A stretch of 56,087 nucleotides of DNA from Mangrovibacterium marinum (lineage in GTDB: Bacteria > Bacteroidota > Bacteroidia > Bacteroidales > Prolixibacteraceae). Position numbers and translations under genes: made by a program. The stretch's first letter is position 1, and every line of letters starts with the position of its first letter. Under the pieces are notes generated by a model. That model worked only from the letters and a program-made list of their open reading frames with translations. It had not been told where the DNA came from and did no database searches. Shown here one piece after another: positions 4,493-55,259 of this stretch. The DNA lies in the NCBI RefSeq assembly GCF_003046625.1, contig NZ_QAAD01000023.1:1-56087 (forward strand), read 5' to 3'.

Positions 4493-6781
4493 ATGAAGAT
4501 CCTTCGAAAATTAGTACCACTTTGTGCAGTTTTATTCGCGATGGTCTCGTGCAGTAATTGCCCGAAAGGCGATTTGCCCGTTGCCATTGTCCCCCAACCG
4601 AACCAGTTGGTTCGTCAGGACGGAGCGTTTACCGTCACCAAAAAAACAAGTCTTGTGCTCCCCGGGAGCGAGAAACTGCAAAAAGTCGCAGGCCTGATCA
4701 ATCAGCGTTTTAGTCAGGCAGCGGGCTTCGAGCTCGTAGTAACGGATGAGAAGCCGTCATCAAACTTTATTGCCGTTGAGCTGGATCCGGCCTGGACTAA
4801 GGGCGACGAAGCTTATGAGCTGACCGTTGATAAAAGCGGCGTACAGGTGAAAGCCGGCACCGAGCGTGGTGCTTTTTACGGGCTGGTGAGCATGTTGCAA
4901 TTGCTGCCGCCGGCAATCGAAAGCACAACCGTGGTTGACGATGTATGCTGGAGCATTCCCTTTGTGCAGATCGACGATGCCCCGCGTTTTGTGTGGCGCG
5001 GAATGCACCTGGATGTGTGCCGCCATTTTGTGCCGGTTGAGTTTATTAAAAAGCAACTGGATGTGATGGCCCTGTTCAAGATGAATACTTTTCACTGGCA
5101 CCTGACTGAAGATCAGGGTTGGCGGATTGAAATCAAAAAATATCCGAAACTAACCGAGCTGGGCTCAAAACGGGTTGAAGGCGACGGATCGGTTTACGGC
5201 GGTTTTTACACCCAGGATGAAGTGCGCGAAGTAGTGGCTTATGCTGCCGAGCGTTTCATCAACGTCGTTCCCGAGATTGAGCTGCCCGGCCACTCGCTGG
5301 CTGCCCTGGTTGGCTATCCCGAGTTGTCGTGTACCGGCGGGCCTTTCGAGGTGCGCAACGTGTGGGGCGTCGAACCCGATGTGTACTGTGCCGGTAAAGA
5401 AGAAGTTTTCCACTTTCTGGAAGATATCATCGACGAAGTGGTGCCTTTGTTCCCTTACGAGTATTTCCACATTGGTGGCGACGAGTGTCCCAAAGACCGT
5501 TGGAAAAAGTGCCCCGACTGTCAACGACGCATGCGCAAAGAGGGCTTGAAAAACGAACACGAGCTGCAAAGCTACTTTGTACAACGCATCGAAAAAGTGT
5601 TGCTGGCTCATGGCAAAAAAATGATTGGCTGGGACGAAATCCTCGAAGGTGGACTGGCTCCTTCGGCAACCGTGATGTCATGGCGGGGCGAAGAAGGTGG
5701 TATTGAAGCCGCCAAACAAGGACACGACGTTATTATGACTCCCGGAAACTGGGTGTACCTGGACCACTACCAGGGAAGCAGCAAGGTTGAACCCGTTGCT
5801 ATTGGCGGCTACACCACTCTGGAAGAATCGTACAGCTACAACCCCGTTCCCAAGGAACTGGAAGGCGAGCAAGCTAAGTATATTCTCGGCACACAGGGCA
5901 ATGTGTGGTCGGAATACATGTACACTCCCGAAATGTTCGAATACCGCATTTATCCGCGTATTATCGCACTGGCCGAAGTGGGCTGGACGCAAGTTGAAAA
6001 CAAAAACTTCGATGATTTCCTGAAACGCATGGATCCGCAGTTTGTGCGTCTCGACTACCACGGAATCAATTACCATATTCCACTTCCGGAAGGTCCGTTA
6101 AACCAGATGGCTTTTACCGACTCCATCACCCTCGATTTTAGCACAAGCCGGCCAATCAAAATGGTATATACCCTCGATGGAACCGAGCCTGACCAAAACT
6201 CGCAAGTGTACGGGTCGCCCCTGTCTTTTACTGAAAATGCGACGGTGAAAATCCGTTCCGTTTTGAACAGCGGAAAAATGAGTGCTGTGCGCACCATTCA
6301 GGTTGAAAAGCAGGATTATGCTCCGGCAGCAACGGTTGAAACAAGCCACAGCGGGTTGAACGGACGCTATGCCGAAGGTATTTTTGTACAGGTGAAAGAT
6401 ACGGAGTCGGTTGATCAATGGACCGACATTGCAGTAGACCGCAAGAACCTGAAGACGATTAACGACTACAAAACACCGACAGCAGCAGTGCTGGATGGCT
6501 ACATCGAACTACCGGAAAATGGTATTTATGAGTTCCAGACTAATTTCGACCAGTTCTTTATTGGCGACCAATTGCTGGTGAATAACGATGGCGAAGTGAA
6601 GCGCTTCTCGCGCAGCAATGCAAGCATGGCACTGGCCAAAGGAAAACACCCGGTTAAGATTGTCTACCTGAATAACAACATCGGCGGCTTCCCGCAATCG
6701 TGGAACTACTTCAATCTGGAGTACAGAAAATCCGGCGATGAGAAATTCAGCTTGATTAAACTGGAAGATTATACGTATTAG
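4493..6781 (+). CDS. GH20 beta-N-acetylhexosaminidase lipoprotein with PA14-like domain
   Basis: A 762-residue exo-hexosaminidase expected to release beta-linked GlcNAc/GalNAc from glycan ends by substrate-assisted catalysis. It has a lipoprotein signal with Cys20 (AMVSC), a GH20b domain (about 30-155) and a GH20 barrel (about 165-505). The catalytic pair is Asp330-Glu331 in HIGGDE. A chitobiase C-terminal-like domain (about 530-600) contains YTLDGTEP, and a PA14-like domain (about 620-755) closes the protein. At the subsite loop the residues are Asp424-His425 (VYLDHYQ). It is a close paralogue of the GH20 at 18837 over the barrel, but has a different tail. It precedes a GH2 beta-galactosidase, with a terminator between. 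Confidence 0.95.
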   Translation: MKILRKLVPLCAVLFAMVSCSNCPKGDLPVAIVPQPNQLVRQDGAFTVTKKTSLVLPGSEKLQKVAGLINQRFSQAAGFELVVTDEKPSSNFIAVELDPAWTKGDEAYELTVDKSGVQVKAGTERGAFYGLVSMLQLLPPAIESTTVVDDVCWSIPFVQIDDAPRFVWRGMHLDVCRHFVPVEFIKKQLDVMALFKMNTFHWHLTEDQGWRIEIKKYPKLTELGSKRVEGDGSVYGGFYTQDEVREVVAYAAERFINVVPEIELPGHSLAALVGYPELSCTGGPFEVRNVWGVEPDVYCAGKEEVFHFLEDIIDEVVPLFPYEYFHIGGDECPKDRWKKCPDCQRRMRKEGLKNEHELQSYFVQRIEKVLLAHGKKMIGWDEILEGGLAPSATVMSWRGEEGGIEAAKQGHDVIMTPGNWVYLDHYQGSSKVEPVAIGGYTTLEESYSYNPVPKELEGEQAKYILGTQGNVWSEYMYTPEMFEYRIYPRIIALAEVGWTQVENKNFDDFLKRMDPQFVRLDYHGINYHIPLPEGPLNQMAFTDSITLDFSTSRPIKMVYTLDGTEPDQNSQVYGSPLSFTENATVKIRSVLNSGKMSAVRTIQVEKQDYAPAATVETSHSGLNGRYAEGIFVQVKDTESVDQWTDIAVDRKNLKTINDYKTPTAAVLDGYIELPENGIYEFQTNFDQFFIGDQLLVNNDGEVKRFSRSNASMALAKGKHPVKIVYLNNNIGGFPQSWNYFNLEYRKSGDEKFSLIKLEDYTY

Positions 6782-18836: not shown

Positions 18837-21134
18837 ATGAAGAAAATTATTCTCAGTCTTTGGGTTTTTTGCTGCCCGTTTTTGCTCTTTGCCGAAAACC
18901 TGTTGCCGATTATTCCGCAACCGGTGTCGGTTCAGCTTAAGCAGGGTAGTTTTATCATCGACGGTGAAACCGGCATTCAGTTTGATAAAACACAGCAGGA
19001 ACTTAAGCAGGCTGCCGATTTTTTTGCCAATGCGGTAGCACATATTTCTGCTTATCAACTCGTAACCAACCAACAGAAAACCAAAACCATTGCATTGAGC
19101 CTGCAGGAACTGCCAACAATTGGAGCAGAAGGCTACCAGCTCGATGTGACCCCCGAAAAAATTGACCTGCGCGCCAATACCAAGGCCGGTATTATTTATG
19201 GTATGCAGTCGCTGTTGCAGTTGCTGCCTGCTATTCGTACCAATGCGGCGCTGGAAATCCCTTGTTTGTCGATTACTGATTACCCGAGGTTTAAATGGCG
19301 CGGCATGCACCTCGATGTGAGCCGTCACTTTTTTGGTCCCGAAGTGGTTAAAGAGTACATCGACCTGATGGCTTCTTACAAATTGAATACCTTTCATTGG
19401 CATTTGGTCGACGACCAGGGCTGGCGAATTGAAATTAAGAAGTATCCCAAACTGACTGATATTGGCGCGTGGCGTGTGGATCAAACCCAACTGCCCTGGG
19501 ACCAGCGTCCGCAAGCTAAGGACGGCGAGAAACCAACTTACGGCGGCTACTATACCCAGGAACAAATTAAGGAGATTGTTCGCTATGCTGCCGAACGAAA
19601 CGTGACCATTGTGCCGGAAATCGAGATGCCCGGACACGTGGCATCGGCTATTGCAGCGTATCCGGAGCTGAGCTGTAAGCAAAAACCACAGCTTCCGCTT
19701 ACCGGTGGCGATTATACCGATATGTCGTCGAACTATTGCCCGGGAAACGAAGAGGTTTTTCACTTCCTGGAAGATGTTCTGAGTGAAGTAATCGAGCTGT
19801 TCCCTTCAACATACATCCACATTGGCGGCGACGAGGTGAACAAAGATTCCTGGAAAGCTTGCGAGCGTTGCCAGGCCCGCATGAAAAAGGAAAAGCTGAA
19901 AGATGAAAATGAGCTGCAAAGCTATTTCATCCAGCGCATGGAGAAATTCCTCATCAGCAAAGGCCGCAAAATGATTGGCTGGGACGAAATTCTGGAAGGT
20001 GGACTGGCGCCCGAAGCTACGGTAATGAGCTGGCGAGGCGAAGCCGGTGGTATTGAAGCGGCGAAAATGGGCCACGATGTGGTGATGACCCCAGGCAGCC
20101 CTTGCTATTTCGACCACTATCAGGCCGGACCTGAAGGCGAGCCAATGGCCATTGGTGGTTTTAATACCTTGCAAAAGGTGTACGATTATGAGCCAATTCC
20201 TGCGGAACTGAATGAAGAGCAGGCCCAATATGTGTTGGGGGCTCAGGCCAATGTCTGGACCGAATACATCACCACTCCGGAGTACCTCGAATATATGGTG
20301 TTGCCACGTATGCTGGCCCTGGCTGAAGTCGTGTGGACCCCTGCGGCACAAAAGGATTGGACGAGTTTCAACCTGCGCCTGCAAAATCAATTCCGGGCTT
20401 TCGAACAAAAAGGCTTGCGCTACTGTGGCGGAAACTACACCGTTCATATTAAACCGACATCAACAAACGGCAAGCTGAAGGTTGAATTGACGACCGAAAT
20501 TTTAAATGCCGAAATACATTACACCCTTGATGGTAGCGAGCTTACTGCCGCCAGCCCCAAATACACGGAGCCCGTGGAAATCAAAGCCAGCACCGTGCTG
20601 AAAGCTTCCAATGTGGTTGGTGGTCAGGTGAAAGGTTTTAAGCCTGCCGAGCAAACATTTGTGATGCACCAGGCGATTGGGCGGGCTGTTGAATACACAA
20701 AACCGGTGAGCCGCTACTACCAGGCCGATGGCCCTAACTCGCTGACCGATGGTGTTCGCGGAACCGAAACCGTCGGAAAATACTGGCACGGTTTCAACGG
20801 AACAGACCTGGTTGCGACCATCGATTTAGGCGAAAGCAAAACAATCAGCAGTATCACGCTGGGCTGCCTGCAAAAGTACCGCGATTGGATTTTTATGCCC
20901 TCATCAGTCAATTTTGAAGTTTCAACCGATGGCAAAAACTTTAGGCAATTGGCAAACCTTGCCAATCCGGTTGACCGCAACGAAGAGTTGGCTCAACACG
21001 ACTTTAAAAGTGAATTTAAAGCGCAAAAGGCACGCTATATTCGGGTGACTGCCAAAAGTACACTTTGCCCCGAAGGGCATCCCGGAGCCGGAAAACCAGC
21101 CTGGATCTTCGCTGATGAAATTATTGTGGAGTAA
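18837..21134 (+). CDS. GH20 beta-N-acetylhexosaminidase with CBM32-like domain
   Basis: A 765-residue exo-hexosaminidase. The signal peptide ends near LLFAE and has no lipobox Cys. It has a GH20b domain (about 25-150) and a barrel (about 160-510) with catalytic Asp332-Glu333 (HIGGDE). A chitobiase C-like domain (about 540-610, YTLDGSELTAASP) and an F5/8-type C (CBM32-like) domain (about 640-763) follow. Subsite loop residues are Asp426-His427 (CYFDHYQ). The barrel closely resembles the GH20 at 4493 (shared MIGWDEILEGGLAP), so the two are paralogues with exchanged C-terminal domains. The gene starts 6 bp after the GH16 stop. Confidence 0.95.
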   Translation: MKKIILSLWVFCCPFLLFAENLLPIIPQPVSVQLKQGSFIIDGETGIQFDKTQQELKQAADFFANAVAHISAYQLVTNQQKTKTIALSLQELPTIGAEGYQLDVTPEKIDLRANTKAGIIYGMQSLLQLLPAIRTNAALEIPCLSITDYPRFKWRGMHLDVSRHFFGPEVVKEYIDLMASYKLNTFHWHLVDDQGWRIEIKKYPKLTDIGAWRVDQTQLPWDQRPQAKDGEKPTYGGYYTQEQIKEIVRYAAERNVTIVPEIEMPGHVASAIAAYPELSCKQKPQLPLTGGDYTDMSSNYCPGNEEVFHFLEDVLSEVIELFPSTYIHIGGDEVNKDSWKACERCQARMKKEKLKDENELQSYFIQRMEKFLISKGRKMIGWDEILEGGLAPEATVMSWRGEAGGIEAAKMGHDVVMTPGSPCYFDHYQAGPEGEPMAIGGFNTLQKVYDYEPIPAELNEEQAQYVLGAQANVWTEYITTPEYLEYMVLPRMLALAEVVWTPAAQKDWTSFNLRLQNQFRAFEQKGLRYCGGNYTVHIKPTSTNGKLKVELTTEILNAEIHYTLDGSELTAASPKYTEPVEIKASTVLKASNVVGGQVKGFKPAEQTFVMHQAIGRAVEYTKPVSRYYQADGPNSLTDGVRGTETVGKYWHGFNGTDLVATIDLGESKTISSITLGCLQKYRDWIFMPSSVNFEVSTDGKNFRQLANLANPVDRNEELAQHDFKSEFKAQKARYIRVTAKSTLCPEGHPGAGKPAWIFADEIIVE

Positions 21135-22253: not shown

Positions 22254-22457
22254 ATGACAACCATGCAGAATCATAAAGTAGAAGTTTGGATCCTGTCAAT
22301 CCTGGTATTCCTATTTGGGGCGTCGGGATTGTATGCTGGTTTTAATCATCACGGGTACCTTGCATTTCTGTTGGGGGTGTTTTGTGGGAAGGCTTCGACT
22401 CGATTGTACACAACTATTAAAAAAGCAGGAGAACTAAAATTAGTACAAGCTAAATGA
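22254..22457 (+). CDS. Small two-helix membrane protein of unknown function
   Basis: A 67-codon frame between a terminator and a sulfatase gene. Its stop overlaps the sulfatase start by 4 nt (ATGA), which argues for real, coupled translation. The product has two hydrophobic segments (VWILSILVFLFGASGLYAGF and GYLAFLLGVFCG) followed by a basic, lysine-rich tail (RLYTTIKKAGELKLVQAK). No family is recognised. A second in-frame ATG at 22263 is possible. It would be the first gene of the unit carrying the two sulfatases, GH29, GH27, GH20 and GH2, and may sit in the inner membrane. Function is unknown. Confidence 0.6.
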   Translation: MTTMQNHKVEVWILSILVFLFGASGLYAGFNHHGYLAFLLGVFCGKASTRLYTTIKKAGELKLVQAK

Positions 22458-24007
22458 AAAAACCTATACGAAATATATCGACTGCCGTGTTGGGGCTGAT
22501 GGCATTTTCGGCCTGTACGTCGCCAACAACAGGTGAGCATACCGCGGAAAAACCCAACATCCTGTTTTTCCTGGTCGACGACATGGGCTGGCAGGACACC
22601 TCGGTGCCTTTTGCCAGCGATACCACACCCAATAACCGGAAATACCATACGCCCAATATGGAGCGGCTGGCTTCGCAAGGGATGAAATTTACCCAAGCTT
22701 ATGCAACAGCGGTGTGCTCGCCCACACGTACTAGCCTGATGACCGGCATGAACGCCGCCCGCCATCGGGTAACGAACTGGACTCTGAACCGCGATGCCTC
22801 GGTGGATGCTCCCGATGAGGTTCTGGAGTTTCCGAAATGGAATGTGAATGGACTTCAGGCAGTGGATTCCATTGAACAATCAGTGTATGCCACCACCTTG
22901 CCCCAACTGTTGCACGACAATGGTTATTACACTATTCACTGCGGAAAAGCACACTGGGGAGCCTTTGGAACCCCCGGAGCCGATCCATTGACGTTGGGCT
23001 TCGATGTGAACATTGCCGGACATGCAGCCGGAAGGCCTGCAAGCTATCAGGGCGAGCGGTTCTTCGGAAATGCCGAGCCGGGCGTTTACACCCAACCTTG
23101 GGGAGTTCCCGGGCTGGAAAAATACCATGGCGATACCATCAACCTGACCGATGCGCTGACACGGGAAGCTATTGCGGCCATCGAAAAGTCGCGCGGGACC
23201 GGAAAGCCATTCTATCTGTATATGTCGCACTACACGGTGCATACCCCTTTGGAACCGGATAAGCGCTACTACCAGAAATATATTGATCGGGGGTACGACG
23301 AGCTTGAAGCTCGTTATGCCTCCATGGTGGAAGGGATGGACCAAAGCCTGGGTGATCTGATGGATTATCTGGCGAAGAATGGCCTTGACAAGAATACAGT
23401 CATCTTATTTATGTCGGATAATGGTGGATTGAGCGCTGCTGAGCGCGGTGGAGAGCGCCATACGCACAATGCCCCGTTGAACAGCGGCAAAGGATCGGCT
23501 TATGAAGGCGGTATCCGCGAGCCCATGTTGGCCAAATGGCCGGGACATATCGAGGCCGCTTCGGTGTGTGACGATTACCTGATCATTGAAGATTATTACC
23601 CTACCATTCTCGAACTGGCCGGAGTGAAGGACTATCAAACCGTGCAGCAGATCGATGGAAAAAGCTTTGTGCCCATGCTTTTGCAAACCGGTACAACAGC
23701 CCGGGGGCGGGATTTATTCTGGCATTTTCCCAACAAATGGGGCGCTTCGGGGCCCGGGATCGGTACAACAAGCACCATCCGCAGTGGCGACTGGAAGCTC
23801 ATTTATTGGTACAAAACCGGCGAGTACGAGCTGTTTAACATCCGCGAAGATTTGGGTGAAAAACATAACCGTGCCGCCGAACATCCCGAGATCGTGAAAG
23901 AACTGGCAATGAAGTTGGGGAATTACCTGCGCTCGGTAAATGCGCAGCGCCCCAGCCTGAAAGAGAGCGGGCAGGTCGTGGCCTGGCCCGATGAGCATTT
24001 GAAATAG
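22454..24007 (+). CDS. Type I (S1 family) sulfatase lipoprotein
   Basis: A 517-residue formylglycine-dependent sulfatase with lipoprotein signal Cys21 (MAFSAC). The metal-binding start PNILFFLVDDMGW is followed by the maturation motif Cys88-S-P-T-R, whose Cys is converted to formylglycine by a maturase not seen here. Other conserved blocks are IHCGKAHWG and ILFMSDNGG. Which O-sulfate on which sugar is removed cannot be told by eye; I do not assign an S1 subfamily. In this locus Gal, GalNAc or GlcNAc sulfate of mucin-type chains is the likely target. It is coupled to the small membrane-protein gene upstream and is followed 26 bp later by another sulfatase. Confidence 0.93.
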   Translation: MKKPIRNISTAVLGLMAFSACTSPTTGEHTAEKPNILFFLVDDMGWQDTSVPFASDTTPNNRKYHTPNMERLASQGMKFTQAYATAVCSPTRTSLMTGMNAARHRVTNWTLNRDASVDAPDEVLEFPKWNVNGLQAVDSIEQSVYATTLPQLLHDNGYYTIHCGKAHWGAFGTPGADPLTLGFDVNIAGHAAGRPASYQGERFFGNAEPGVYTQPWGVPGLEKYHGDTINLTDALTREAIAAIEKSRGTGKPFYLYMSHYTVHTPLEPDKRYYQKYIDRGYDELEARYASMVEGMDQSLGDLMDYLAKNGLDKNTVILFMSDNGGLSAAERGGERHTHNAPLNSGKGSAYEGGIREPMLAKWPGHIEAASVCDDYLIIEDYYPTILELAGVKDYQTVQQIDGKSFVPMLLQTGTTARGRDLFWHFPNKWGASGPGIGTTSTIRSGDWKLIYWYKTGEYELFNIREDLGEKHNRAAEHPEIVKELAMKLGNYLRSVNAQRPSLKESGQVVAWPDEHLK

Positions 24008-24033: not shown

Positions 24034-25587
24034 ATGAAGCGTAATTTAATGATGATGTGTGGTTTGGCGTCCCTGGCAGCAGGTTGTACTTCAACCCAAC
24101 CCAAGGAGGTTAAGCCGCAGAAACCGAATATCATTTTTATCATGACCGACGATCATTCGTTCCAAACCTTGGGAGCGTATGACAGTACCTTAATTAAAAC
24201 GCCCGGCTTGGATCGTATCGCCAACGAAGGGGTCACGTTTTCGAACAGTTTTGTGTGTAACTCGATTTGTGCACCCAGCCGGGCTGCGATGCTCACCGGA
24301 AAGCATAGCCATGCCAACGGGCAACGCGATAATGCCGACACCTTCGATGGCAGTCAGCAAACCTTCCCGAAACTGTTGCATCAGGCCGGTTACCAAACCG
24401 CACTGATCGGTAAATGGCACCTGAAAAGCCAGCCTACCGGCTTCGATTACTGGAACATTTTGCCCGGGCAGGGAAGCTATTACAACCCCGATTTTATCGA
24501 CTCAACCGGACAGAAACATTACGACGGTTATGTAACTGATTTGATTACAGACTTCAGTACCGATTGGCTCGATCATCGCGATAAGGATAAGCCCTTCTGT
24601 ATGCTGGTGCATCACAAAGCCGTTCACCGCGTGTGGATGCCGCCTACGAAGTATTTGAATGAATTTAAGGACCGCAAGTTTGAGGTGCCCGAAAATTTCT
24701 TCGACGATTATGAAGGGCGGATTGCTGCCTCGCAACAGGAAATGAGCATCATCAAGGATATGGACCTGGTGTACGATTTGAAAATGCTCGACAAAGAAGG
24801 GGATATCAAGTCGCGTCTTCGCGGAGCATACCAGGGCGGCGCCTATGCGCGTATGAACGAGGAGCAACGTGCTGCCTGGGACGCCGTGTACGACCCGATT
24901 ATTGCCGATTTCAGAGCCCGTAAACTGACCGGTCGCGAGCTGGCCGAATGGAAATACAACCGCTATATGCAAGACTATCTGGCTTGTGTAAAATCCTTGG
25001 ATGACAATGTTGCCCGCCTGTTGAAATATTTGGACGATAACGGCCTGGCGGAAAATACGCTGGTTGTTTACACCTCCGACCAGGGTTTTTACATGGGTGA
25101 GCACGGCTGGTTCGACAAGCGTTTCATGTATGAGGAATCCTTCCGCACACCGCTGTTGATGCGCTTCCCAAAAGCTTACACCAATGCGCACGGCAAAATT
25201 GACCAGTTAGTGCAGAACATTGATTATGCGCCAACCTTCCTGGATTTGGCCGGCGTAGCTGTTCCCGAAGATATTCAGGGGGAATCCTTGTTGCCTTTGG
25301 TGGGCGAAAATGCACCCGAACACTGGCGCAACGGCCTGTATTATCACTATTACGAATACCCGGCCGAGCACGCCGTAAAACGTCATTACGGCATTCGTAC
25401 CAATCGCTACAAGCTCATTCATTTTTATAATGATATTGATGCCTGGGAACTGTACGATTTGCAGAACGACCCGCACGAAATGCATAACCTGTACGGTCAA
25501 TCCGAGTATCAGGAATTGGCCGATAGCCTGAAAACGCAGTTGCTGAATTTGCAACAACAATATCAGGATCCGATTATTAATCAATAA
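24034..25587 (+). CDS. S1 sulfatase, probable GlcNAc-6-O-sulfatase type
   Basis: A 517-residue sulfatase with lipoprotein signal Cys18 (SLAAGC). PNIIFIMTDDHSFQTLGAYDS precedes the maturation motif Cys79-A-P-S-R. Further hallmarks are LIGKWHLKSQPTGFDYW, VHHKAVHRVWMPP, YTSDQGFYMGEHGWFDKRFMYEE and a C-terminal NDPHEMHNLY. This set resembles the S1_11 group, whose characterised members remove 6-sulfate from GlcNAc; that assignment is from memory of family features and should be checked by HMM. A GlcNAc-6-sulfatase would unblock hexosaminidase digestion of sulfated mucin chains. Its stop codon overlaps the next ATG by one base (TAATG). Confidence 0.9.
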   Translation: MKRNLMMMCGLASLAAGCTSTQPKEVKPQKPNIIFIMTDDHSFQTLGAYDSTLIKTPGLDRIANEGVTFSNSFVCNSICAPSRAAMLTGKHSHANGQRDNADTFDGSQQTFPKLLHQAGYQTALIGKWHLKSQPTGFDYWNILPGQGSYYNPDFIDSTGQKHYDGYVTDLITDFSTDWLDHRDKDKPFCMLVHHKAVHRVWMPPTKYLNEFKDRKFEVPENFFDDYEGRIAASQQEMSIIKDMDLVYDLKMLDKEGDIKSRLRGAYQGGAYARMNEEQRAAWDAVYDPIIADFRARKLTGRELAEWKYNRYMQDYLACVKSLDDNVARLLKYLDDNGLAENTLVVYTSDQGFYMGEHGWFDKRFMYEESFRTPLLMRFPKAYTNAHGKIDQLVQNIDYAPTFLDLAGVAVPEDIQGESLLPLVGENAPEHWRNGLYYHYYEYPAEHAVKRHYGIRTNRYKLIHFYNDIDAWELYDLQNDPHEMHNLYGQSEYQELADSLKTQLLNLQQQYQDPIINQ

Positions 25588-27641
25588 TGTTCAACCGACA
25601 GAAAATGAAAATTAGATTTAGCATTGCCCTGGTTCTGTTATTAACGACCGGACTGTTTGCACAAGCCCAATTGCCCAAGCCCACTGATTTGCAAATGCGC
25701 TGGCAGAAGATGGAGACCATCGCTTTTGTTCACTTCAGTATCAACACGTTCACCGATATGGAGTGGGGCTATGGGAACGAGTCGCCCGAATTGTTCAACC
25801 CCACGAATCTGGATTGCCGCCAGTGGGTGAAAATCTGTAAAGATGCCGGCTTGAAAGGCGTTATCCTGACAGCCAAACATCACGACGGCTTCTGCCTGTG
25901 GCCTTCAGCTTACACCGAACACAGCGTGAAAAATTCGCCCTGGAAAAACGGTCAGGGCGATGTGGTGCGCGAGTTTGCCGATGCCTGTAAAGAATTTGGC
26001 CTGAAAATGGGACTTTATCTTTCACCCTGGGACTGCAATCACCCCGACTACGGCAAGCCGGAATACAACCAGTATTTCAAAAATCAGTTAACCGAGTTGC
26101 TGACCAACTACGGCGATCTGTTCGAAATTTGGTTCGATGGCGCCAATGGTGGTCGTGGCTACTACGGAACCGACTCGCTGCATAACCGGAGCATTTCGGA
26201 AGATTATTACGACTGGCAAGGCTTTGTTGACATCGTTCGCGAGCTGCAGCCCAACTGCATTGTGCATGGAGGCGGCCTGCCAGATATTCGTTGGGTCGGT
26301 AATGAAGAAGGCCATGCCGGTAAAACCCATTGGAGCAGTTTGTTGCCCAATGGTCAATTCAGCAAAGATAAGAGTCACCCGGCACAGTTGAACGAAGGCC
26401 ATGAAAACGGGACGCGTTGGCTGCCTTCTGAGACCGACGTTTCAGTTCGTCCGGGCTGGTACTACCACGCTTCGGAAGATCACCAGGTGAAATCACTGCC
26501 CCGCTTAATGGATATTTATTACGAAAGCGTTGGCCGCAACAGCTTGCTGCTGCTCAACCTAAGTCCGGATAAGCGTGGTTTGGTACATCCCATCGATTCG
26601 TTGCGATTGCTGGAGTGGAAACGTCAGCTGGATCAGGATTTCCGGGAGAACCTGATTACATCGGCTTGTCGTTTTTCGTCAAATGTGAAGAAACATGTGA
26701 TGAAGGCTTTCGACGATGATTATTCGTCGTACTGGCAGGCTTCGGAGGCCGGCAGCTTCCTGGAGATCGACATTAAAAAGACCGTTACTATAAACCGCCT
26801 GCTGTTGCAGGAATACATCCCGGAAGGACAACGGGTGAAAGCTTTTCGCGTGGAATATTTCGAGGATGGAAGCTGGAGAGAACTGGCCAGCGAGACGACC
26901 ATCGGCTATAAGCGGATTCTTCGCTTTTTGCCGGTTACAACATCAAAATTGCGCGTGACTTTTGAGGAGATGCTCGCTCCGGTAATGATCACCAAAGTGG
27001 CGGCCTACAATGCTCCGATATTGTTGGCTCAACCGGTCATTCGCCGCAACCAGCAAGGCATGGTGAGCATCTATTCGCCCGAAAAACATGGCGAAGTGTT
27101 TTACACAACCGACGGTACAACGCCCACGCGCGAATCAAATCGCTACGAAAAACCATTCTTATCTGACGGCGACGTCACCATTAAAGCAGTGGTTTATAGT
27201 GGAAGCAATCACGGTGAACTTGGTGAACAGTACTTCGGTATCTCCAAAGCGAACTGGACCGTTGTGGGAACGGATTCATCGAAACTGCCCTTATTCGACG
27301 GTAATCCCAACAGTAGCTGGGTGAGCCCCAAAAATCAGCGGGAAGCGATTATCGATTTTGGCGCGGAACTTTCGTTCAATGGCCTGACTTATCTGCCCGA
27401 TCAGGCGCGGTGGGCACAGGGTATTGCCAGCGGATACCGGATTTCGGTTAGTGCTGATGGCGAAAACTGGACGGTGGTTTTGAGCGGCGACTTTTCGAAT
27501 ATTCGCAACAACCCGATAACCCAAACAATTGAACTTGGAAAAACCGTGAAAGCCCGTTTCCTGAAATTTGAAGCCACCTCGGTTGTTGACAATCAGCCGG
27601 TATTGGGAATTGCCGAAATCAATATTGCGCAAACGAAATAA
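25587..27641 (+). CDS. GH29 alpha-L-fucosidase with two F5/8C domains
   Basis: A 684-residue exported fucosidase. The catalytic barrel (about 30-345) has FVHFSINTFTDMEWGYG, AKHHDGFCLWPS and LFEIWFDGANGG, in which Asp184 is the expected nucleophile. An F5/8-type C domain (about 350-475), a chitobiase C-like domain (about 480-545, FYTTDGTTPTRES) and a second F5/8C domain (about 555-682) follow. The NTFTDMEWG form recalls GH29-B enzymes specific for alpha-1,3/1,4 fucose of Lewis structures; this is tentative. The ATG used overlaps the sulfatase stop. An alternative ATG at 25605 (MKIRFSIALVLLL) gives a shorter, equally good signal peptide. Confidence 0.93.
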   Translation: MFNRQKMKIRFSIALVLLLTTGLFAQAQLPKPTDLQMRWQKMETIAFVHFSINTFTDMEWGYGNESPELFNPTNLDCRQWVKICKDAGLKGVILTAKHHDGFCLWPSAYTEHSVKNSPWKNGQGDVVREFADACKEFGLKMGLYLSPWDCNHPDYGKPEYNQYFKNQLTELLTNYGDLFEIWFDGANGGRGYYGTDSLHNRSISEDYYDWQGFVDIVRELQPNCIVHGGGLPDIRWVGNEEGHAGKTHWSSLLPNGQFSKDKSHPAQLNEGHENGTRWLPSETDVSVRPGWYYHASEDHQVKSLPRLMDIYYESVGRNSLLLLNLSPDKRGLVHPIDSLRLLEWKRQLDQDFRENLITSACRFSSNVKKHVMKAFDDDYSSYWQASEAGSFLEIDIKKTVTINRLLLQEYIPEGQRVKAFRVEYFEDGSWRELASETTIGYKRILRFLPVTTSKLRVTFEEMLAPVMITKVAAYNAPILLAQPVIRRNQQGMVSIYSPEKHGEVFYTTDGTTPTRESNRYEKPFLSDGDVTIKAVVYSGSNHGELGEQYFGISKANWTVVGTDSSKLPLFDGNPNSSWVSPKNQREAIIDFGAELSFNGLTYLPDQARWAQGIASGYRISVSADGENWTVVLSGDFSNIRNNPITQTIELGKTVKARFLKFEATSVVDNQPVLGIAEINIAQTK

Positions 27642-27651
27642 ACAGAGAAGC

Positions 27652-28935
27652 ATGATAAAAAATCGTATTTCCCAAATCACCAGGCTCGCCTGCCTGACCG
27701 TTTTGTTGCTGGCCAGCTCATGCGGGCAAAACCCGGCCAAACAACCGCCGGCCGGACAGGAAGCAACAGGCGAAGTTGAAAACCTGCTGCACCCGCCGGT
27801 TATGGGCTGGGCCAGCTGGAACAACTACCGCGTGAACATCAACCAGGATATCATCCGGGCGCAGGCCGATGCGATGATTGACCGGGGACTGAGTGACGCC
27901 GGTTACAGCTACCTGAATATTGACGATGGTTTCTTCGGAGGCCGCGACGAGCAGGGCAATATCCTGCCGCATCCCGAGCGCTTTCCCGATGGCATGAAAG
28001 TTCTGGCCGACTATATCCACAGCAAAGGCCTGAAAGCCGGGATTTATTCCGATGCTGGGATTAACACTTGTGCCTCGTACTGGGACAAAGACACGATTGG
28101 TGTCGGGATGGGACTTTACGGCCACGATGTGCAGGACCTGAACTTGTTTTTGAATACCTGGGGATACGATTTTCTGAAAGTGGACTGGTGTGGTGGCGAT
28201 TGGCTTGGCCTCGACGAGGAAGAGCGTTACACCGCATTGGCCCGTCAGGCTAAAGCGCTTAAACCGGAAATGGTGTTCAATGTGTGCCGCTGGAAATTCC
28301 CGGGGAAATGGGTCACTCAGGTGGCCGATTCCTGGCGCATCTCCGGCGATATCGACAATCGATTTGAATCCATCTTAGCGATTATCGACTTGAATGCTGA
28401 TTTGTGGAAACACGCTTCTTACGGGCATTACAACGATATGGACATGTTGCAGGTAGGACGCGGAATGAGCTATGAAGAGGATAAAGCCCATTTTTCGATG
28501 TGGTGCCTGATGAACTCGCCGCTTTTGCTTGGAAACGACCTCACAACCATGTCGCAGGAAACTGTGGAGCTGGTGACCAACGACGAGTTGATTGCCATCA
28601 ACCAGAGTCCCTTTGTTTACCAGGCACGCCGCGTGATTGACTACGGCGAACAGGAAGTTTGGGGACGCCCGCTGGTGTCGAATATAAGCGGGCAGGTGGC
28701 AGTAGCCCTGCTCAACCGCTCGACCGAAAAGGCTGATATCGCTTTTGCCCTGGAGACCGTCGGAATTGATGCTTCCAAAGGCTATCGGGTGCACGACCTG
28801 TGGTCGAAAAAAGATTATGAACCTTCTGCGGACTCGGAATTGAGCTTCGAAGTTCCCGGGCATGCCGTTGTGGTGTTGAAAATCACCGGCACCAACATTC
28901 CGTATAATGTTTTTCAGTATCAGGATAAAAATTAA
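27652..28935 (+). CDS. GH27 alpha-galactosidase/alpha-N-acetylgalactosaminidase-type lipoprotein
   Basis: A 427-residue GH27 enzyme with lipoprotein signal Cys24 (LLLASSC). The ATG at 27652 is chosen because the open frame upstream lies inside the GH29 gene. The barrel has MGWASWNN near the start, YSYLNIDDGF, nucleophile Asp178 in KVDWCGGD, and acid/base Asp233 in DSWRISGD. A beta-sandwich C-terminal domain (about 330-425) follows. GH27 includes alpha-galactosidases, alpha-N-acetylgalactosaminidases and beta-L-arabinopyranosidases. The loop that separates Gal from GalNAc recognition in animal enzymes reads VCRWKFPG here and matches neither. Removal of blood-group A/B-like alpha caps is plausible. 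Confidence 0.92.
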   Translation: MIKNRISQITRLACLTVLLLASSCGQNPAKQPPAGQEATGEVENLLHPPVMGWASWNNYRVNINQDIIRAQADAMIDRGLSDAGYSYLNIDDGFFGGRDEQGNILPHPERFPDGMKVLADYIHSKGLKAGIYSDAGINTCASYWDKDTIGVGMGLYGHDVQDLNLFLNTWGYDFLKVDWCGGDWLGLDEEERYTALARQAKALKPEMVFNVCRWKFPGKWVTQVADSWRISGDIDNRFESILAIIDLNADLWKHASYGHYNDMDMLQVGRGMSYEEDKAHFSMWCLMNSPLLLGNDLTTMSQETVELVTNDELIAINQSPFVYQARRVIDYGEQEVWGRPLVSNISGQVAVALLNRSTEKADIAFALETVGIDASKGYRVHDLWSKKDYEPSADSELSFEVPGHAVVVLKITGTNIPYNVFQYQDKN

Positions 28936-29007
28936 AACCAGCTTATTCCGGTGGTAAAAGTTCCCGGTTTTTCAGCATTTACTTTGAGGCCAACGAATGT
29001 AACCCCC

Positions 29008-29043: not shown

Positions 29044-29070
29044 CAAAAGAATAAAACGGATCAAAAACGA

Positions 29071-31395
29071 ATGAAATTAACTATTTACACACTTGCGTTG
29101 ATTGTCTGCTGCCTTTTTGCCGGATGTAATGCCCGGCAGGCAGCCAGCCCCGATGCGGCTCCCGCAGTTGTCCCGGCTCCGGTTGCGGTCGAAAAAGGGG
29201 AGGGGTATTTCAAGCTTTCAAAAAACACGACCTATTTTGTAGAAGACGATCTTCAACAGCAGCTTGCTGACCGGTTCTTTAAAGGGCTGGAGCTGGCTTT
29301 GGGTGGCTGTCCAAAACAGATGCAGGATCCAGACAAAGCGGATATCCTTTTTCAGTCCGCTACCGGTTTAGGCGATGAAGCATACAGGCTGGAAATAACG
29401 CCCCGGAAAATTCGGGTTGAAGCCGAAACGGAGAGCGGCTTTTTTTATGCCACTCAGACCTTGCGGTTATTGTTGCCCGCTGCTATTGAGGCGGCCTCCG
29501 CAGAAACAGAAAACGCAGAATATCGTCTTCCGGCACTGGCCATGACCGATTATCCGCGCTTCGCCTACCGCGGGCTGATGTTGGATGTTTCGCGCTATTT
29601 TATTCCCAAAGAAACGGTGCTGGAAATTATTGACGCCATGGCCATGTTGAAAATGAACAAGCTGCACTTGCACTTGGTGGATGATAATGGCTGGCGAATT
29701 GAAATAAAAAAATATCCGAAGCTGACCGATGTGGGAGCCTGGCGGGTTGAACGAGATGAACCATTCCCGGCCCGCCCGAATGCGCTACCCGGCGAAAAAG
29801 CGACTATCGGCGGTTTCTACACCCAGGACGACATTCGCGAAATGGTGAACTATGCCGGCCAGCGCCAGGTTGAAATCATCCCCGAAATCGAAATGCCTGC
29901 ACATACCAATTCCTCACTGGCAGCTTATCCCGAGCTGGCATGTTCTGTTGTCCACAAACCGATTACGGTATTGTCCGGCCTCGGTGGCAAAAATGCGGAA
30001 ATCATTTATTGCGCCGGAAAAGAAAAAGTATTTCACTTTTTGGAGGATGTGATTGACGAAGTTGCTGAGCTCTTTCCATCGAAATATATTCACCTGGGAG
30101 GCGACGAAGCTGCTAAAACTTACTGGAAAAGATGTCCCGATTGCCAGGCCCGGATGAAAGCTGAAAAGCTTCCGAATGAAGAGGAATTACAAAGCTATTT
30201 TATGAAACGGATGAGCCGCAATGTGCAAAGTAAAGGCAAAGAAGTACTGGGCTGGGATGAACTGACCAACAGTGAACTACCCGACGATGCCATCATTTTT
30301 GGCTGGCGCGGCGACGGACAGGCAGCGCTGAAAGCAGCCCGCCAAGGGCATCGGTTTGTGCTCACACCTGCTAAGAAATTATACCTCATCCGCTATCAGG
30401 GGCCGCAATGGTTTGAGCCGCTGACCTATTTCGGCAACAATACGCTTCAGGATGTTTACAACTATGAGCCGGTGGGCGACAATTGGGAGCCCGGTCTCGA
30501 CAGTTTGCTGATGGGCGTGCAAGGCTCCTTGTGGACAGAGTTCTGCAACGCTCCCGAGGATGTGGAATACCTGGTTTTCCCGCGTCTGGTAGCGCTTGCT
30601 GAAGTTGCGTGGTCGCCAAAAGGAACAAAAAACTGGCCGGGTTTTCTGCCTGCACTCGACAATTATCTGGCACACCTGGAGCAAAAGGGAATCACTTATG
30701 CCCGCTCCATGTATAACATCGACCATTTGGTGCGTCCCTCCAACGGCACATTGCTTGTTGGCTTGAGCTGCATCCGCCCCGATGTTGAAATCCGACTGAC
30801 GACGGATGGTTCCGAACCAACGGCCAACTCGGCGGGGTACACCGACAGCCTGCGGGTTGAAAAGGCCACCGTGATTAAAGCGGCAACCTTTCGCAAAGGC
30901 GTACAGACCGGAAAAACACTAACACTCGATTTGCTGAAAAACAAAGCTACTGCCTGTCCGGTGACGGCAGAGAATGGCCGTGCCTACGTGTTAACAAACG
31001 GACTGCGGGGCAGCGACCGGCACTCCGATTTTGAATGGGCGGGCTGGTACAACCAGGATGCTGTTTTTGAAGTTGACCTGGGACGTGAACAGCCCATTTC
31101 GGCAGTCACATTGGGGACTGTATCCAATGCCGGGATGGGGGTTTTTCGACCTGCAAAAGTCCGGCTTTTGGTGTCGGATGACCAAACGAATTACACGACC
31201 GTAGCGGAGATTACGGAAAGCGATGAAAGCATTTTCGAAGCCGGAACAAAGATTAAAGATCTGGACTTCGGAGAGCTGAATGTGCGTGGGCGCTATTTAA
31301 AAATTGAAGCGCAAAATCCGGGACACTGCCCGCCGGGACTTCCTCGCGTGGGACAGGCCACCTGGATGTATTTTGATGAATTGATGGTGCATTAA
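29071..31395 (+). CDS. GH20 exo-hexosaminidase lipoprotein with altered subsite (possible 6-sulfo-GlcNAc type)
   Basis: A 774-residue GH20 with lipoprotein signal Cys19 (CCLFAGC). The ATG at 29071 is preferred over the long frame from 28951, which would translate through the hairpin. The barrel carries catalytic Asp345-Glu346 (HLGGDE). A chitobiase C-like domain (about 555-615) and an F5/8-type C domain (about 625-773) complete it. Where the sibling enzymes read YLDHYQ or YFDHYQ, this one reads YLIRYQ (Ile440-Arg441). The matching positions in human hexosaminidase are Asp-Leu in the beta subunit and Asn423-Arg424 in the alpha subunit, the latter binding 6-sulfated GlcNAc. A sulfoglycosidase-like specificity is therefore suggested but unproven. 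Confidence 0.94.
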   Translation: MKLTIYTLALIVCCLFAGCNARQAASPDAAPAVVPAPVAVEKGEGYFKLSKNTTYFVEDDLQQQLADRFFKGLELALGGCPKQMQDPDKADILFQSATGLGDEAYRLEITPRKIRVEAETESGFFYATQTLRLLLPAAIEAASAETENAEYRLPALAMTDYPRFAYRGLMLDVSRYFIPKETVLEIIDAMAMLKMNKLHLHLVDDNGWRIEIKKYPKLTDVGAWRVERDEPFPARPNALPGEKATIGGFYTQDDIREMVNYAGQRQVEIIPEIEMPAHTNSSLAAYPELACSVVHKPITVLSGLGGKNAEIIYCAGKEKVFHFLEDVIDEVAELFPSKYIHLGGDEAAKTYWKRCPDCQARMKAEKLPNEEELQSYFMKRMSRNVQSKGKEVLGWDELTNSELPDDAIIFGWRGDGQAALKAARQGHRFVLTPAKKLYLIRYQGPQWFEPLTYFGNNTLQDVYNYEPVGDNWEPGLDSLLMGVQGSLWTEFCNAPEDVEYLVFPRLVALAEVAWSPKGTKNWPGFLPALDNYLAHLEQKGITYARSMYNIDHLVRPSNGTLLVGLSCIRPDVEIRLTTDGSEPTANSAGYTDSLRVEKATVIKAATFRKGVQTGKTLTLDLLKNKATACPVTAENGRAYVLTNGLRGSDRHSDFEWAGWYNQDAVFEVDLGREQPISAVTLGTVSNAGMGVFRPAKVRLLVSDDQTNYTTVAEITESDESIFEAGTKIKDLDFGELNVRGRYLKIEAQNPGHCPPGLPRVGQATWMYFDELMVH

Positions 31396-31437: not shown

Positions 31438-34506
<3,069 letters not shown>

Positions 34507-34734: not shown

Positions 34735-36270
34735 ATGAGAAAAGTATTACCCTTTATTGGCTGTTTTGTTTCTGTATCCGGAGCGTTTGCGCAGCCTCTG
34801 CTACCCGCTGAAAAACCCAATATTGTGATTGTGTATGCCGATGATTTGGGCTACGGCGATATTGGCGTGAATGGCGCTCAAGGCGTTAAAACACCAAACA
34901 TAGACCGCTTAGCCAGCGCGGGCGTGAATTTTACCGATGCACATTGCTCTTCGGCAACTTGCACGCCTTCGCGCTATTCGCTGCTCACCGGCAGTTATGC
35001 TTTTCGGGGCCAGGCTGCCGTGTTGCCGGGCGATGCCCCTTTGCTGATCCGTCCCGAACAGGCAACATTGCCACGAATGTTGCAGGCCTCGGGCTACACC
35101 ACCGCTGTTGTCGGAAAATGGCACCTGGGGCTGGGCAACGGGAAGCTCGACTGGAATAAGGAGATAAAGCCCGGACCTCGGGAGATCGGCTTCGACTACA
35201 GTTTTCTGATTCCCGCAACGGGAGATCGGGTTCCCTGTGTTTTTGTCGAAAATCAGCGCGTGGTGGGGCTGGATCCAACCGACTCCATTCGCGTGAATTA
35301 CAGGGTAAAACTCGATGGCTATCCAACCGGAACGGAGCATCCCGAGTTGTTAAAACAAGCAGCCGATCCGCAGCACAACAATACCATTGTCAACGGTCTG
35401 AGCCGAATCGGCTTCATGAGCGGTGGCGAACAAGCTTTGTGGAAAGACGAAGAATTTCCCTTCATTTTGACCGAAAAGGCCAAAACTTTTATGGAAGAAA
35501 ATCAACACAAACCTTTTTTTCTTTATCTGGCCTTCCACGATATTCATGTTCCGCGCGCGCCGAATGAGCAGTTTGTCGGAACGAGCTCAATGGGGCCTCG
35601 CGGCGATGCCATTGCACAGATGGACTGGTGCGTGGGGCAGGTAATTGAGCAGCTCGAACGGCTTGGGCTGGATGAAAAAACATTGGTCATTTTCTCCAGC
35701 GACAACGGGCCCGTATTGAATGATGGCTATGCGGACCAGGCTGTAGAGCTCTTGGGGGATCATCAACCATCGGGGCCATTTCGGGGCGGCAAGTATTCCA
35801 TACTGGAGGCCGGAACCCGGATGCCAACTATTGTTTACTGGCCCGGAACGGTGCAGGCCGGAACGAGCAGCGCGCTGCTCAGCCAGGTTGATTGGTATGC
35901 CTCGCTGGCTGATTTGGTGGGACATCAGCTACAGCCCGGTGAAGCTCCCGACAGTCAGCCTTTGTTGCAAGCCTGGCTCGGAAAAACATCTGCCGGAAGG
36001 GACGTCATGCTCGAAGAAGCTTATACCTATGGTTTGCGGCAGGGATCGTGGAAGTATATTCAAGCCAGAAAAGGCGAAGCCCCCCGCTGGATTGAGCAGG
36101 GCAAAGGGATCGCCAGCGGAATGGCGAACTATCCGCAGCTATACAATTTGGAAGCAGACACAGCCGAGCAGAACAACTTGGCTGAATCGTATCCCGAGCT
36201 AGTGCAACAAATGCAGCAGACGCTGGAGAAAATACTTGACGAAAGACCGGCTGAAAATCCAGGTAAATGA
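34735..36270 (+). CDS. Type I (S1 family) sulfatase, exported
   Basis: A 511-residue sulfatase with a Sec signal peptide (SVSGAFAQ, no lipobox). Key blocks: PNIVIVYADDLGYGDIG, maturation motif Cys76-T-P-S-R, VVGKWHLGLG, IPATGDRVPCVFVEN, FHDIHVPRAPNEQF, MGPRGDAIAQMDW and FSSDNGPVL. The MGPRGD and GDRVPCVF blocks set it apart from the other three sulfatases here. I associate them with galactose-type sulfatases of mucin-degrading Bacteroides (perhaps the S1_20 group acting on 3-sulfo-Gal), with low certainty. It is the first gene of the sulfatase-GH110-GH89 cassette and runs into the GH110 gene 34 bp later. Confidence 0.92.
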   Translation: MRKVLPFIGCFVSVSGAFAQPLLPAEKPNIVIVYADDLGYGDIGVNGAQGVKTPNIDRLASAGVNFTDAHCSSATCTPSRYSLLTGSYAFRGQAAVLPGDAPLLIRPEQATLPRMLQASGYTTAVVGKWHLGLGNGKLDWNKEIKPGPREIGFDYSFLIPATGDRVPCVFVENQRVVGLDPTDSIRVNYRVKLDGYPTGTEHPELLKQAADPQHNNTIVNGLSRIGFMSGGEQALWKDEEFPFILTEKAKTFMEENQHKPFFLYLAFHDIHVPRAPNEQFVGTSSMGPRGDAIAQMDWCVGQVIEQLERLGLDEKTLVIFSSDNGPVLNDGYADQAVELLGDHQPSGPFRGGKYSILEAGTRMPTIVYWPGTVQAGTSSALLSQVDWYASLADLVGHQLQPGEAPDSQPLLQAWLGKTSAGRDVMLEEAYTYGLRQGSWKYIQARKGEAPRWIEQGKGIASGMANYPQLYNLEADTAEQNNLAESYPELVQQMQQTLEKILDERPAENPGK

Positions 36271-40666: not shown

Positions 40667-42097
40667 ATGAACAATACATTGCTTTTGGCCGGAGCTTCCC
40701 TTTTTTTGGGTACGGCCTGCACCGGCACTGCAAAGAACAAGCCCGAGGAGAAACCCAATATCGTCTACATTTTGGCCGATGATATGGGCTATGGCGATTT
40801 AAGCTCTTACGGACAGCAAAAGTTTCAAACGCCAAACATCGACAAACTGGCGAATGGCGGTATCCGGTTCACGCAGCATTACTCCGGTTGTACCGTATGT
40901 GCACCGTCGCGTTCTTCGTTGATGACCGGCATGCATACGGGGCATACGCCTATCCGGGGAAATTATGAAATGGAGCCTGAAGGTCAGTACCCGATTGCCA
41001 AAGAAACTTTTACGGTGGCCGAAATGCTGAAAGAGGCTGGCTATGCGACCGGCGCTTTCGGAAAATGGGGACTGGGCTATCCCGGTTCGGAGGGCGATCC
41101 CAATAGGCAGGGATTTGATGAGTTCTACGGTTACAACTGCCAGCGACAGGGCCATAACTACTACCCGTACTATTTGTGGCATAATCAGCAAAAAGAAATA
41201 CTGGAAGGAAACAAAGATCACGAAACGGGTGATTATGCCCCGGAGCTGATTCACCGCCAGGCCTTGAAATTTATCGAAGACCATAAGGACGAACCCTTCT
41301 TTTTGTACTATCCGTCCATCATCCCGCATGCCGAGTTGGTTGCCCCGGAAAATTACATGGAAAAACATCGCGGGAAATATGAGCCTGAGAAGAACTACAA
41401 AGGTGTTGACGAAGGACCTTCCTATAAAAACGGTGGTTATTGCTCGCAACCCGAAGCGCATGCCGCTTTTGCAGCCATGATCAATCTGTTGGATGACCAG
41501 GTTGGCGAAATCGTTGCGAAACTGGAAGAACTGGGGATTGCTGATAATACCTTGATCATTGTCACTTCCGATAACGGTCCCCATATGGAAGGTGGTGCCG
41601 ACCCGAACTATTTCAACGGCAACAATGTATTCCGCGGTTTTAAACGCGATTTATACGAAGGTGGCATTCGGGTGCCCATGGTTGCCGCCTGGCCCGGAAA
41701 AATTAAAGCCGGTCAGGTGTCGGATCATATTTCAGCCTTTTGGGATATGATGCCCACCTTTGCCGATCTGGCAGGTGTGAAAACGCCGGAGAACATCGAC
41801 GGAATTTCGATGCTGCCAACATTACTGGGCGACAAACAACCCGAGCACGATTATCTGTACTGGGAATTTCATGGCTACGGCGGCGACAAACAAGCCATCC
41901 GTCAGGGAAAATGGAAAGCGGTTCGGAATCACATCGAAGCGGAAGATACGCCAATCGAGTTGTACGATTTGTCGGCAGATCCATCCGAGCAGACCAACAT
42001 CGCGGAGCAGTTCCCCGAAAAGGTTGAAGAGATGAAGGCGCTGTTTGATCAGGCGCATCAGAAATCGACTATTTTTCCCTTCGCCTACGAAAAGTAG
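40667..42097 (+). CDS. Type I (S1 family) sulfatase lipoprotein
   Basis: A 476-residue sulfatase with lipoprotein signal Cys18 (FLGTAC). Blocks: PNIVYILADDMGYGDLSSYG, maturation motif Cys78-A-P-S-R, GAFGKWGLGYPGSEG, QGFDEFYGYNCQRQGHNYYP, YYPSIIPHAEL, VTSDNGPHMEGG and a C-terminal YDLSADPSEQTNIA. The NCQRQGHNYYP block is seen in the sulfatase group I tentatively equate with S1_16 (4-O-sulfated Gal/GalNAc); confirm by HMM. It begins after a 110-bp gap downstream of the small membrane peptide and is followed by a strong terminator. Confidence 0.92.
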   Translation: MNNTLLLAGASLFLGTACTGTAKNKPEEKPNIVYILADDMGYGDLSSYGQQKFQTPNIDKLANGGIRFTQHYSGCTVCAPSRSSLMTGMHTGHTPIRGNYEMEPEGQYPIAKETFTVAEMLKEAGYATGAFGKWGLGYPGSEGDPNRQGFDEFYGYNCQRQGHNYYPYYLWHNQQKEILEGNKDHETGDYAPELIHRQALKFIEDHKDEPFFLYYPSIIPHAELVAPENYMEKHRGKYEPEKNYKGVDEGPSYKNGGYCSQPEAHAAFAAMINLLDDQVGEIVAKLEELGIADNTLIIVTSDNGPHMEGGADPNYFNGNNVFRGFKRDLYEGGIRVPMVAAWPGKIKAGQVSDHISAFWDMMPTFADLAGVKTPENIDGISMLPTLLGDKQPEHDYLYWEFHGYGGDKQAIRQGKWKAVRNHIEAEDTPIELYDLSADPSEQTNIAEQFPEKVEEMKALFDQAHQKSTIFPFAYEK

Positions 42098-43551: not shown

Positions 43552-43575
43552 TACCACAGCCCCAACACCGAGAAG

Positions 43576-55258: not shown

Positions 55259-55259
55259 T

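Follow-up and report, generated by a model that had tools for sequence, protein, structure and literature searches.

The gene at positions 29071-31395 (plus strand) of contig NZ_QAAD01000023.1 from Mangrovibacterium marinum encodes a 774-residue enzyme of glycoside hydrolase family GH20; the whole contig stretch analysed here, 56,087 nucleotides long, is referred to as the window. We consider it probable that this enzyme is an exo-beta-N-acetylglucosaminidase that accepts, and probably prefers, terminal 6-O-sulfo-N-acetylglucosamine (6-sulfo-GlcNAc), a function that we infer from its loop, predicted fold and gene neighbourhood. An earlier interpretation made from the DNA letters alone (the sequence-only reading) had put it forward as a candidate sulfoglycosidase. 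That candidacy is well supported by inference from alignment with the sulfate-binding enzyme Bt4394 of Bacteroides thetaiotaomicron, a match of the predicted fold to the same enzyme and linkage of many subfamily members to a sulfatase gene. The gene and the sites under discussion are as follows.

29071..31395, plus strand: GH20 enzyme of the I-R subfamily, 774 amino acids (open reading frame, Pfam, structure model)
30103..30108, plus strand: catalytic D345-E346 (GGDE), aligned with D335-E336 of Bt4394
30388..30393, plus strand: codons of I440-R441, candidate 6-sulfate site (alignment to Bt4394 N437-R438; subfamily conservation)
30370..30450, plus strand: remodelled loop, residues 434-460 (AKKLYLIRYQGPQWFEPLTYFGNNTLQ), marked by subfamily-specific columns; residues 442-448 belonged to the retrieval pattern

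The surrounding open reading frame spans 28951-31395 (plus strand), and the 774-residue protein begins at the ATG at 29071. Its N-terminal signal contains a lipobox-like LFAGC; a crude lipobox count among the subfamily gave 21/77, which is too weak for placing the enzymes in the cell. Pfam analysis showed a GH20b domain at residues 31-161 (PF02838, E 9.5e-22), a GH20 catalytic domain at 164-516 (PF00728, E 3.1e-117, model positions 1-347 of 348), an Fn3-like domain at 564-619 and an F5/8C domain at 638-749. With its catalytic domain and GH20b domain, the protein is a member of the GH20 beta-N-acetylhexosaminidases. Catalysis in this family is substrate-assisted, with a Tyr assisting the acetamido group. 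Placed by alignment with Bt4394, and with the chemistry taken from the family, D345-E346 would be the catalytic pair and Y438 the assisting Tyr; in an alignment of 49 rows, D345 and E346 were invariant and Y438 nearly invariant.

In the crystal structure of Bt4394, N437 and R438 bind the 6-sulfate of the substrate, and in the related WG and YG enzymes N-to-D and R-to-A changes lowered kcat/KM to 13-18% (PMC11659886). The sulfate contacts given for other enzymes are the Asn-Arg of YLNR in the alpha subunit of human hexosaminidase A (HexA), Cys-Arg in SGL, Ser-Asn in F3-ORF26, and Gln plus Trp in BbhII (PMC11659886). In the human enzymes, Arg424 of the alpha subunit permits a 6-sulfate and Asp452 of the beta subunit hinders it (PMC8162980). 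What the sequence-only reading had said of HexA agrees with these passages of the two articles. The alignment placed I440-R441 on the N437-R438 pair of Bt4394, and the conserved blocks on either side are reached without a gap; beyond the pair it runs ungapped as far as residue 452, and one residue is gapped after 453. By this alignment and the published roles of the site, the sulfate-excluding Asp is gone from the enzyme and the Arg of the sulfate-binding position is present, as the sequence-only reading had supposed. In I440-R441, as aligned, the -1-site Asp is replaced and a basic residue stands at the predicted sulfate position, which is the combination expected of a 6-sulfo-beta-GlcNAcase.

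The loop reads YLIR and matches none of the motifs YYINR, YYICR, YFSN, YFPQ(X10)WAC and HexA YLNR taken from PMC11659886, whose authors call the sulfoglycosidase motifs diverse, so not strictly defining, and state that 6-sulfo-GlcNAcase specificity is not predictable from sequence alone. The letters YLIR, YFIR, LIRY and GPQW had 0 occurrences in PMC11659886 and in PMC8379841, the main text of each being covered. Likewise, no Ile-Arg GH20 was named in the literature titles and abstract openings searched, a sample that mostly leaves subscription journals uncovered and does not establish absence from print.

The window contains four GH20 genes, and the residue numbers that the sequence-only reading gave for their loop pairs were exact: D-H 424-425 (gene at 4493), D-H 426-427 (gene at 18837), I-R 440-441 (gene at 29071) and N-H 337-338 (gene at 51145). 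Its claim that all four pairs occupy the same loop position is backed by alignment for the first three. For the GH20 at 51145 the equivalence is a motif match (Y-L-N-H) only, because the two printed phmmer alignments end short of that residue; its best Pfam stretch covers 1-112 of 348 GH20 model positions. This GH20 (51145-53109) is divergent, with a GTDE catalytic motif, a Y-L-N-H loop and a partial Pfam domain match, and it is adjoined by a sialidase-type gene and SGNH/SAE esterase-type genes.

Among solved relatives ranked by sequence, Bt4394 (PDB 7dup, 7dva, 7dvb) sits just under 6q63. It has the same GH20b-GH20 fold at 34-35% identity and shares the catalytic D-E, the Tyr and the Arg at the aligned position. 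However, it reads Q-I-P-Y-Y-I-N-R, its Asn, Q431 and E455 are replaced by Ile, Ala and Asn in the window enzyme, and its solved chain (534 residues) is without the Fn3-like or F5/8C part. BT0459 (PDB 6q63) is a GH20 of similar length but reads Y-F-D-Y, with the Asp kept. F3-ORF26, a 6-sulfo-beta-GlcNAcase of Phocaeicola dorei, has the same four-domain layout with near-identical residue numbers (PMC11659886 compared with Pfam) but binds sulfate through S438-N439 (PMC11659886). SGL (Prevotella RS2, PDB 8bbl) has the motif YYICR (PMC11659886), a non-Asp residue followed by Arg as in the window enzyme, but with Cys in place of Ile and in a chain of 901 residues. Human HexA alpha, which reads YLNR against YLIR in the window enzyme, shares the Arg of the motif and also lacks the Asp, but it has Asn for Ile, is 24% identical, and additionally uses a Tyr of the neighbouring chain to bind sulfate (PMC11659886). 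The description of the site as HexA-alpha-like was therefore half right: the shared Arg stands, but Ile differs from the Asn of HexA and Bt4394 is the closer solved sulfate-binding relative.

The sequence-only reading had called for a structural model and its comparison with HexA alpha and bacterial sulfoglycosidases, and at the fold level the outcome agrees with it. The model, built from the 49-row alignment, had a mean predicted local distance difference test score (pLDDT) of 92.7. In the loop, pLDDT was 94 for residues 431-440, 88 for 441-450 and 84 for 451-460. Foldseek gave template modelling (TM) scores, relative to the target, of 0.90-0.91 for Bt4394, 0.87-0.88 for SGL and 0.83 for HexA alpha, and the best E-value belonged to the Asp-type BT0459 (6q63).

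A scan of named genomes with the peptides SYFMKRM and YQGPQWF as the pattern gave 142 relatives, and the best 80 loci were kept. I440-R441 lie outside this pattern, and the result showed that 77 of the 80 loci read I-R; the exceptions were L129 of Phocaeicola oris (N-R), L143 (L-R) and L112 from a Barnesiella metagenome-assembled genome, or MAG (D-Y). When 393 genomes of the order were searched with the whole protein, independently of the loop, the seven best non-self matches (46-62% identity) were all I-R (7/7), and the next 21 loci (about 37-40% identity) comprised 20 with Asp followed by Tyr or His and one Asn-Phe (L054). A tree of 205 rows was built with residues 434-460 masked, after removal of 7 of 212 rows, of which six were distant 'VP' proteins and the seventh lacked the region. 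In this tree, 85 rows formed one clade with support of 1.0. The second-position Arg was found in 84/85 clade rows (82 I-R, one L-R and one N-R; the remaining row is D-Y) versus 3/120 rows outside the clade (Bt4394 N-R, L197 D-R and L005 S-R), where the first position was Asp in 110/120 rows, followed by Y or H in 98. The three SN-type GH20s described below formed a separate branch near Asp-type enzymes; F3-ORF26 itself lies outside the tree.

Counted column by column, the 84 clade rows with the Arg showed a basic residue at 435 in 75/84, Y453 and F454 in 84/84 and N456 in 82/84, and Y453, F454 and N456 occurred in at most 5% of the 110 Asp rows. The rows of the tree and of the column counts are related and not independent. 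Because the column-count rows were picked by motif, R441 in 84/84 and D440 in 110/110 are true by choice, and the loop-masked clade counts are preferred for the Arg; the conservation of residues 442-448 is partly by construction, because 80 of the 85 clade rows come from the YQGPQWF-pattern scan. A chance or misread loop was ruled out, since the I-R pair is fixed across the subfamily. Bt4394 appeared as sister of the I-R clade (support 0.86), a placement that is a lead and not a result because it concerns a single long branch. The tree holds one Bt4394-type sequence because a search of 295 genomes for that type at E 1e-130 returned no match; given so strict a cut-off, little follows from this. 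Among 296 phylum-level genomes, a search at E 1e-175 found four matches besides the window (L254-L257), none of them I-R; it is silent on weaker matches. These four, from another order of the class, read Y-F-N-F (Asn for Asp, then Phe), as does one genome of the same order (L054/L149). The genome of M. marinum encodes a further GH20 (L258/L005, contig C6, 212712-214934) with a short loop reading Y-F-S-R-R, in which Ser replaces Asp and is followed by Arg; it recalls the Ser-Asn sulfoglycosidase type and may be regarded as a second candidate.

The window also holds four sulfatase genes, which stand with other glycan-degrading genes around the I-R GH20 in a cluster for the digestion of mucus sugars.

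24034..25587, plus strand: sulfatase of the GlcNAc-6-sulfatase type (S1_11-like), proposed partner (nearest solved 7p24, 5g2v)
22454..24007, plus strand: second sulfatase (nearest 6uss, 7oza)
34735..36270, plus strand: sulfatase of the S1_15 type (nearest 9bas, 'S1_15A sulfatase')
40667..42097, plus strand: fourth sulfatase (nearest 7ana)
25587..27641, plus strand: GH29-type alpha-L-fucosidase with F5/8C domains (Pfam)
27568..28935, plus strand: GH27-like alpha-galactosidase, Melibiase_2 (Pfam)
31441..34506, plus strand: GH2 of the beta-galactosidase type, often near I-R GH20s (Pfam)
18837..21134, plus strand: ordinary D-H GH20 in the same cluster, for comparison (sequence comparison)
4493..6781, plus strand: ordinary D-H GH20, for comparison (sequence comparison)

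Against solved chains, the 24034-25587 sulfatase matched 7p24, a 'mucin-desulfating sulfatase', at E 4.5e-216 and 5g2v, an 'N-acetylglucosamine-6-sulfatase', at E 5.3e-179, and it is closely related to solved GlcNAc-6-sulfatases. We take 7p24 and 5g2v to belong to S1_11, and the label S1_20 presumably applies to the sulfatase at 40667..42097. S1_15-type sulfatases act on 6-sulfo-galactose or 6-sulfo-N-acetylgalactosamine (6-sulfo-Gal/GalNAc).

Neighbouring genes in other genomes were named by their best BLAST match among 23 window proteins. The result showed a gene related to the 24034 sulfatase (57-84% identical) within 8 kb in 49/80 subfamily loci, and in 39 of those 49 it was directly upstream on the same strand; L125 and L130 were not counted as adjacent, their 'downstream adjacent' genes at negative distances being an artefact of long open frames. 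Among subfamily loci with full flanks the S1_11-like gene was present in 34/58. As controls, 40 GH20 loci from other genomes were used (20 close homologues and 20 more distant), and only 1/40 had an S1_11-like gene (L159, D-L; Fisher test versus 49/80, 4e-11, ignoring common descent). Any sulfatase was found nearby in 53/80 subfamily loci versus 3/40 controls. A relative of the GH2 gene (31441-34506) was present in 46/80 subfamily loci and a relative of the S1_15 gene in 15/80. The control pairs were of the Asp type in 37/40, the others being N-F (L149), N-N (L173) and I-Q (L174); sulfatases were near 2/3 of the non-Asp controls (L173 and L174) and 1/37 of the Asp controls, a post hoc comparison on a small sample, and an association of sulfatases with a missing Asp may be more general among GH20s.

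At the genome level, an S1_11-like gene at E 1e-150 was found in 7/7 I-R genomes versus 49/288 others, a count which assumes that the 295 genomes of the sulfatase search fall within the 393 of the GH20 search. A stricter tier (E up to 1.6e-203) gave 7/7 versus 20/288 and was not used, as the cut was chosen after viewing the list. A survey from the sulfatase side covered the first 40 of 72 listed matches besides that of the window, some stretches being ended by contig ends, and found a classical GH20 in 2/40 S1_11-like loci, both YLIR; a remote GH20-like protein was encoded at one further locus (L220), and another gave a doubtful match (L247). One Barnesiella MAG carries two subfamily members: its I-R copy (L069, 8001-10220) adjoins the sulfatase, and its D-Y copy (L112, 8001-10232), in which GPQWFEP is kept, has no sulfatase in its stretch. 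At three loci a GH20 of the SN type (YFSNP, the motif of the tested F3-ORF26) lies a few kb from an I-R GH20 and an S1_11-like sulfatase.

SN-type GH20s: L072 2832-4481, L077 2715-4376, L100 13125-15497 (two B. fragilis loci, one B. mediterraneensis)

The remote GH20-like protein, with about 23-26% identity and a Y-I/L-V-P loop, was also seen near I-R GH20s in L094, L095, L101, L103, L104 and L117; beside an S1_11-like sulfatase it was seen once, in L220.

Taken together with published work, these data suggest the following mechanism. In ordinary GH20s the Asp at the 440 position faces the O6 side of the sugar and hinders a sulfate, as Asp452 does in the human beta subunit. Ile440 removes this charge and R441 would receive the 6-sulfate, possibly helped by the basic residue 435 and by loop residues specific to the clade, for example Y453 and N456-N457. 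GlcNAc-6-sulfate would be released from mucin-type or keratan-type chains once the fucosidase, the galactosidase and other sulfatases have exposed it, and the S1_11-like sulfatase (24034-25587) may then desulfate the free sugar, in keeping with the gene linkage and with the reported activity of S1_11 sulfatases on 6S-GlcNAc, free or at a chain end (PMC10154612, PMC11790493). The sequence-only reading had proposed that the enzyme bypasses the neighbouring sulfatase; this is less likely, because the gene linkage suggests a partnership, and an order in which the GH20 cleaves first and the sulfatase acts afterwards on released 6-sulfo-GlcNAc is more likely.

The same linkage would fit a different order, in which the S1_11-like sulfatase removes the sulfate and an ordinary beta-N-acetylglucosaminidase follows, with a loop change that serves another purpose, such as a different aglycone or a branched substrate. 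The sulfatase-first order is equally compatible with the gene pairs, an Asp-type control (L159, D-L) has an S1_11-like neighbour too, and many subfamily positions outside the loop are changed (e.g. W306 to G), so that some other cause may lie behind the remodelled site. However, this order would leave the loop change unexplained: loss of the Asp and a fixed Arg on the sulfate position of Bt4394 are not needed for plain GlcNAc, for which D-H GH20s are already present in the same cluster, and the only classical GH20s in the 40 S1_11-like loci were the two I-R ones. We regard an enzyme for plain GlcNAc as distinctly unlikely.

A softer form of the proposed function, which takes a share within the best explanation, is dual specificity of the kind known for HexA alpha, with plain and 6-sulfated GlcNAc both cleaved. 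Little preference would be expected because Ile adds no hydrogen bond, the Asn partner being missing from the window enzyme, and HexA alpha cleaves both plain and 6-sulfated substrates (PMC8162980). The four bacterial enzymes tabulated in PMC11659886, in contrast, favour the sulfated substrate about 290- to 2000-fold, and we hold dual specificity to be a real possibility, though a minority prospect. It is very improbable that the Arg binds a different 6-anion or sugar, such as 6-sulfo-GalNAc or a 6-phosphate. A charged pocket alone does not name its anion, and the cluster includes an S1_15-type sulfatase with relatives in 15/80 loci, but the commonest partner is S1_11-like (49/80) and S1_11 sulfatases act on 6S-GlcNAc (PMC10154612, PMC11790493).

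Several observations weigh against assigning 6-sulfo-GlcNAcase activity to the enzyme. Ile would give no hydrogen bond, which Asn (HexA, Bt4394), Cys (SGL) and Ser (F3-ORF26) may. Q431 of Bt4394 pairs with Ala and its second-shell E455 with N457 (across the one-residue gap), and W306 and other positions are also changed in the subfamily. An Arg in the loop need not contact sulfate, because N443-R444 of F3-ORF26, which lie nearby, proved to be second-shell (PMC11659886). R444A of the WG enzyme retained 16% (PMC11659886). The linkage is also incomplete: 31/80 loci, 24 of them with full flanks and the N-R member L129 included, are without an S1_11-like gene in the stretch examined. Among the six other I-R genomes, the sulfatase stretch includes the I-R GH20 only in G144 and G325; in G292 a distance of 11.7 kb on one contig separates the pair, more than the 8 kb limit, and G047, G156 and G201 carry them on different contigs. 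In G243 (L228) the sulfatase, S1_15 and GH2 genes stand in a row without a GH20. The sulfatase could, moreover, equally act before the GH20.

The most fitting description of the enzyme is that of a candidate 6-sulfo-GlcNAcase whose sulfate site is a variant one, and this description generalises to a subfamily in common gut Bacteroidales. It is possible, and we put this forward tentatively, that Y-[L/F]-I-R-Y-Q-G-P-Q-W-F marks a further way of recognising 6-sulfate: the polar partner would give way to a hydrophobic residue, and recognition would fall to the Arg, perhaps together with basic residue 435. The motif would then define strict 6-sulfo-GlcNAcases in Bacteroides, Parabacteroides, Phocaeicola and Barnesiella, many of them forming a unit with an S1_11-like sulfatase that desulfates after the cut. 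Few 6-sulfo-GlcNAcases are known. If the proposal is true, a single motif, with the help of one neighbouring gene, would identify a group of them in common gut Bacteroidales, which would point to a wider occurrence of intact 6-sulfo-GlcNAc release than has been reported. The proposal would further inform the sequence in which sulfated mucin is broken down and provide enzymes for mapping glycan sulfation.

Elsewhere in the window, the GH27 frame (27568-28935) shares 74 bases with the end of the GH29 gene, and an internal ATG is probably its true start. In the region 42301-55934, a PNGase F-type N-glycanase gene precedes a second SusC/SusD pair, which is accompanied by genes of the sialidase and esterase types; this is perhaps a cluster for N-glycans or sialoglycans that lies next to the mucin-type one.

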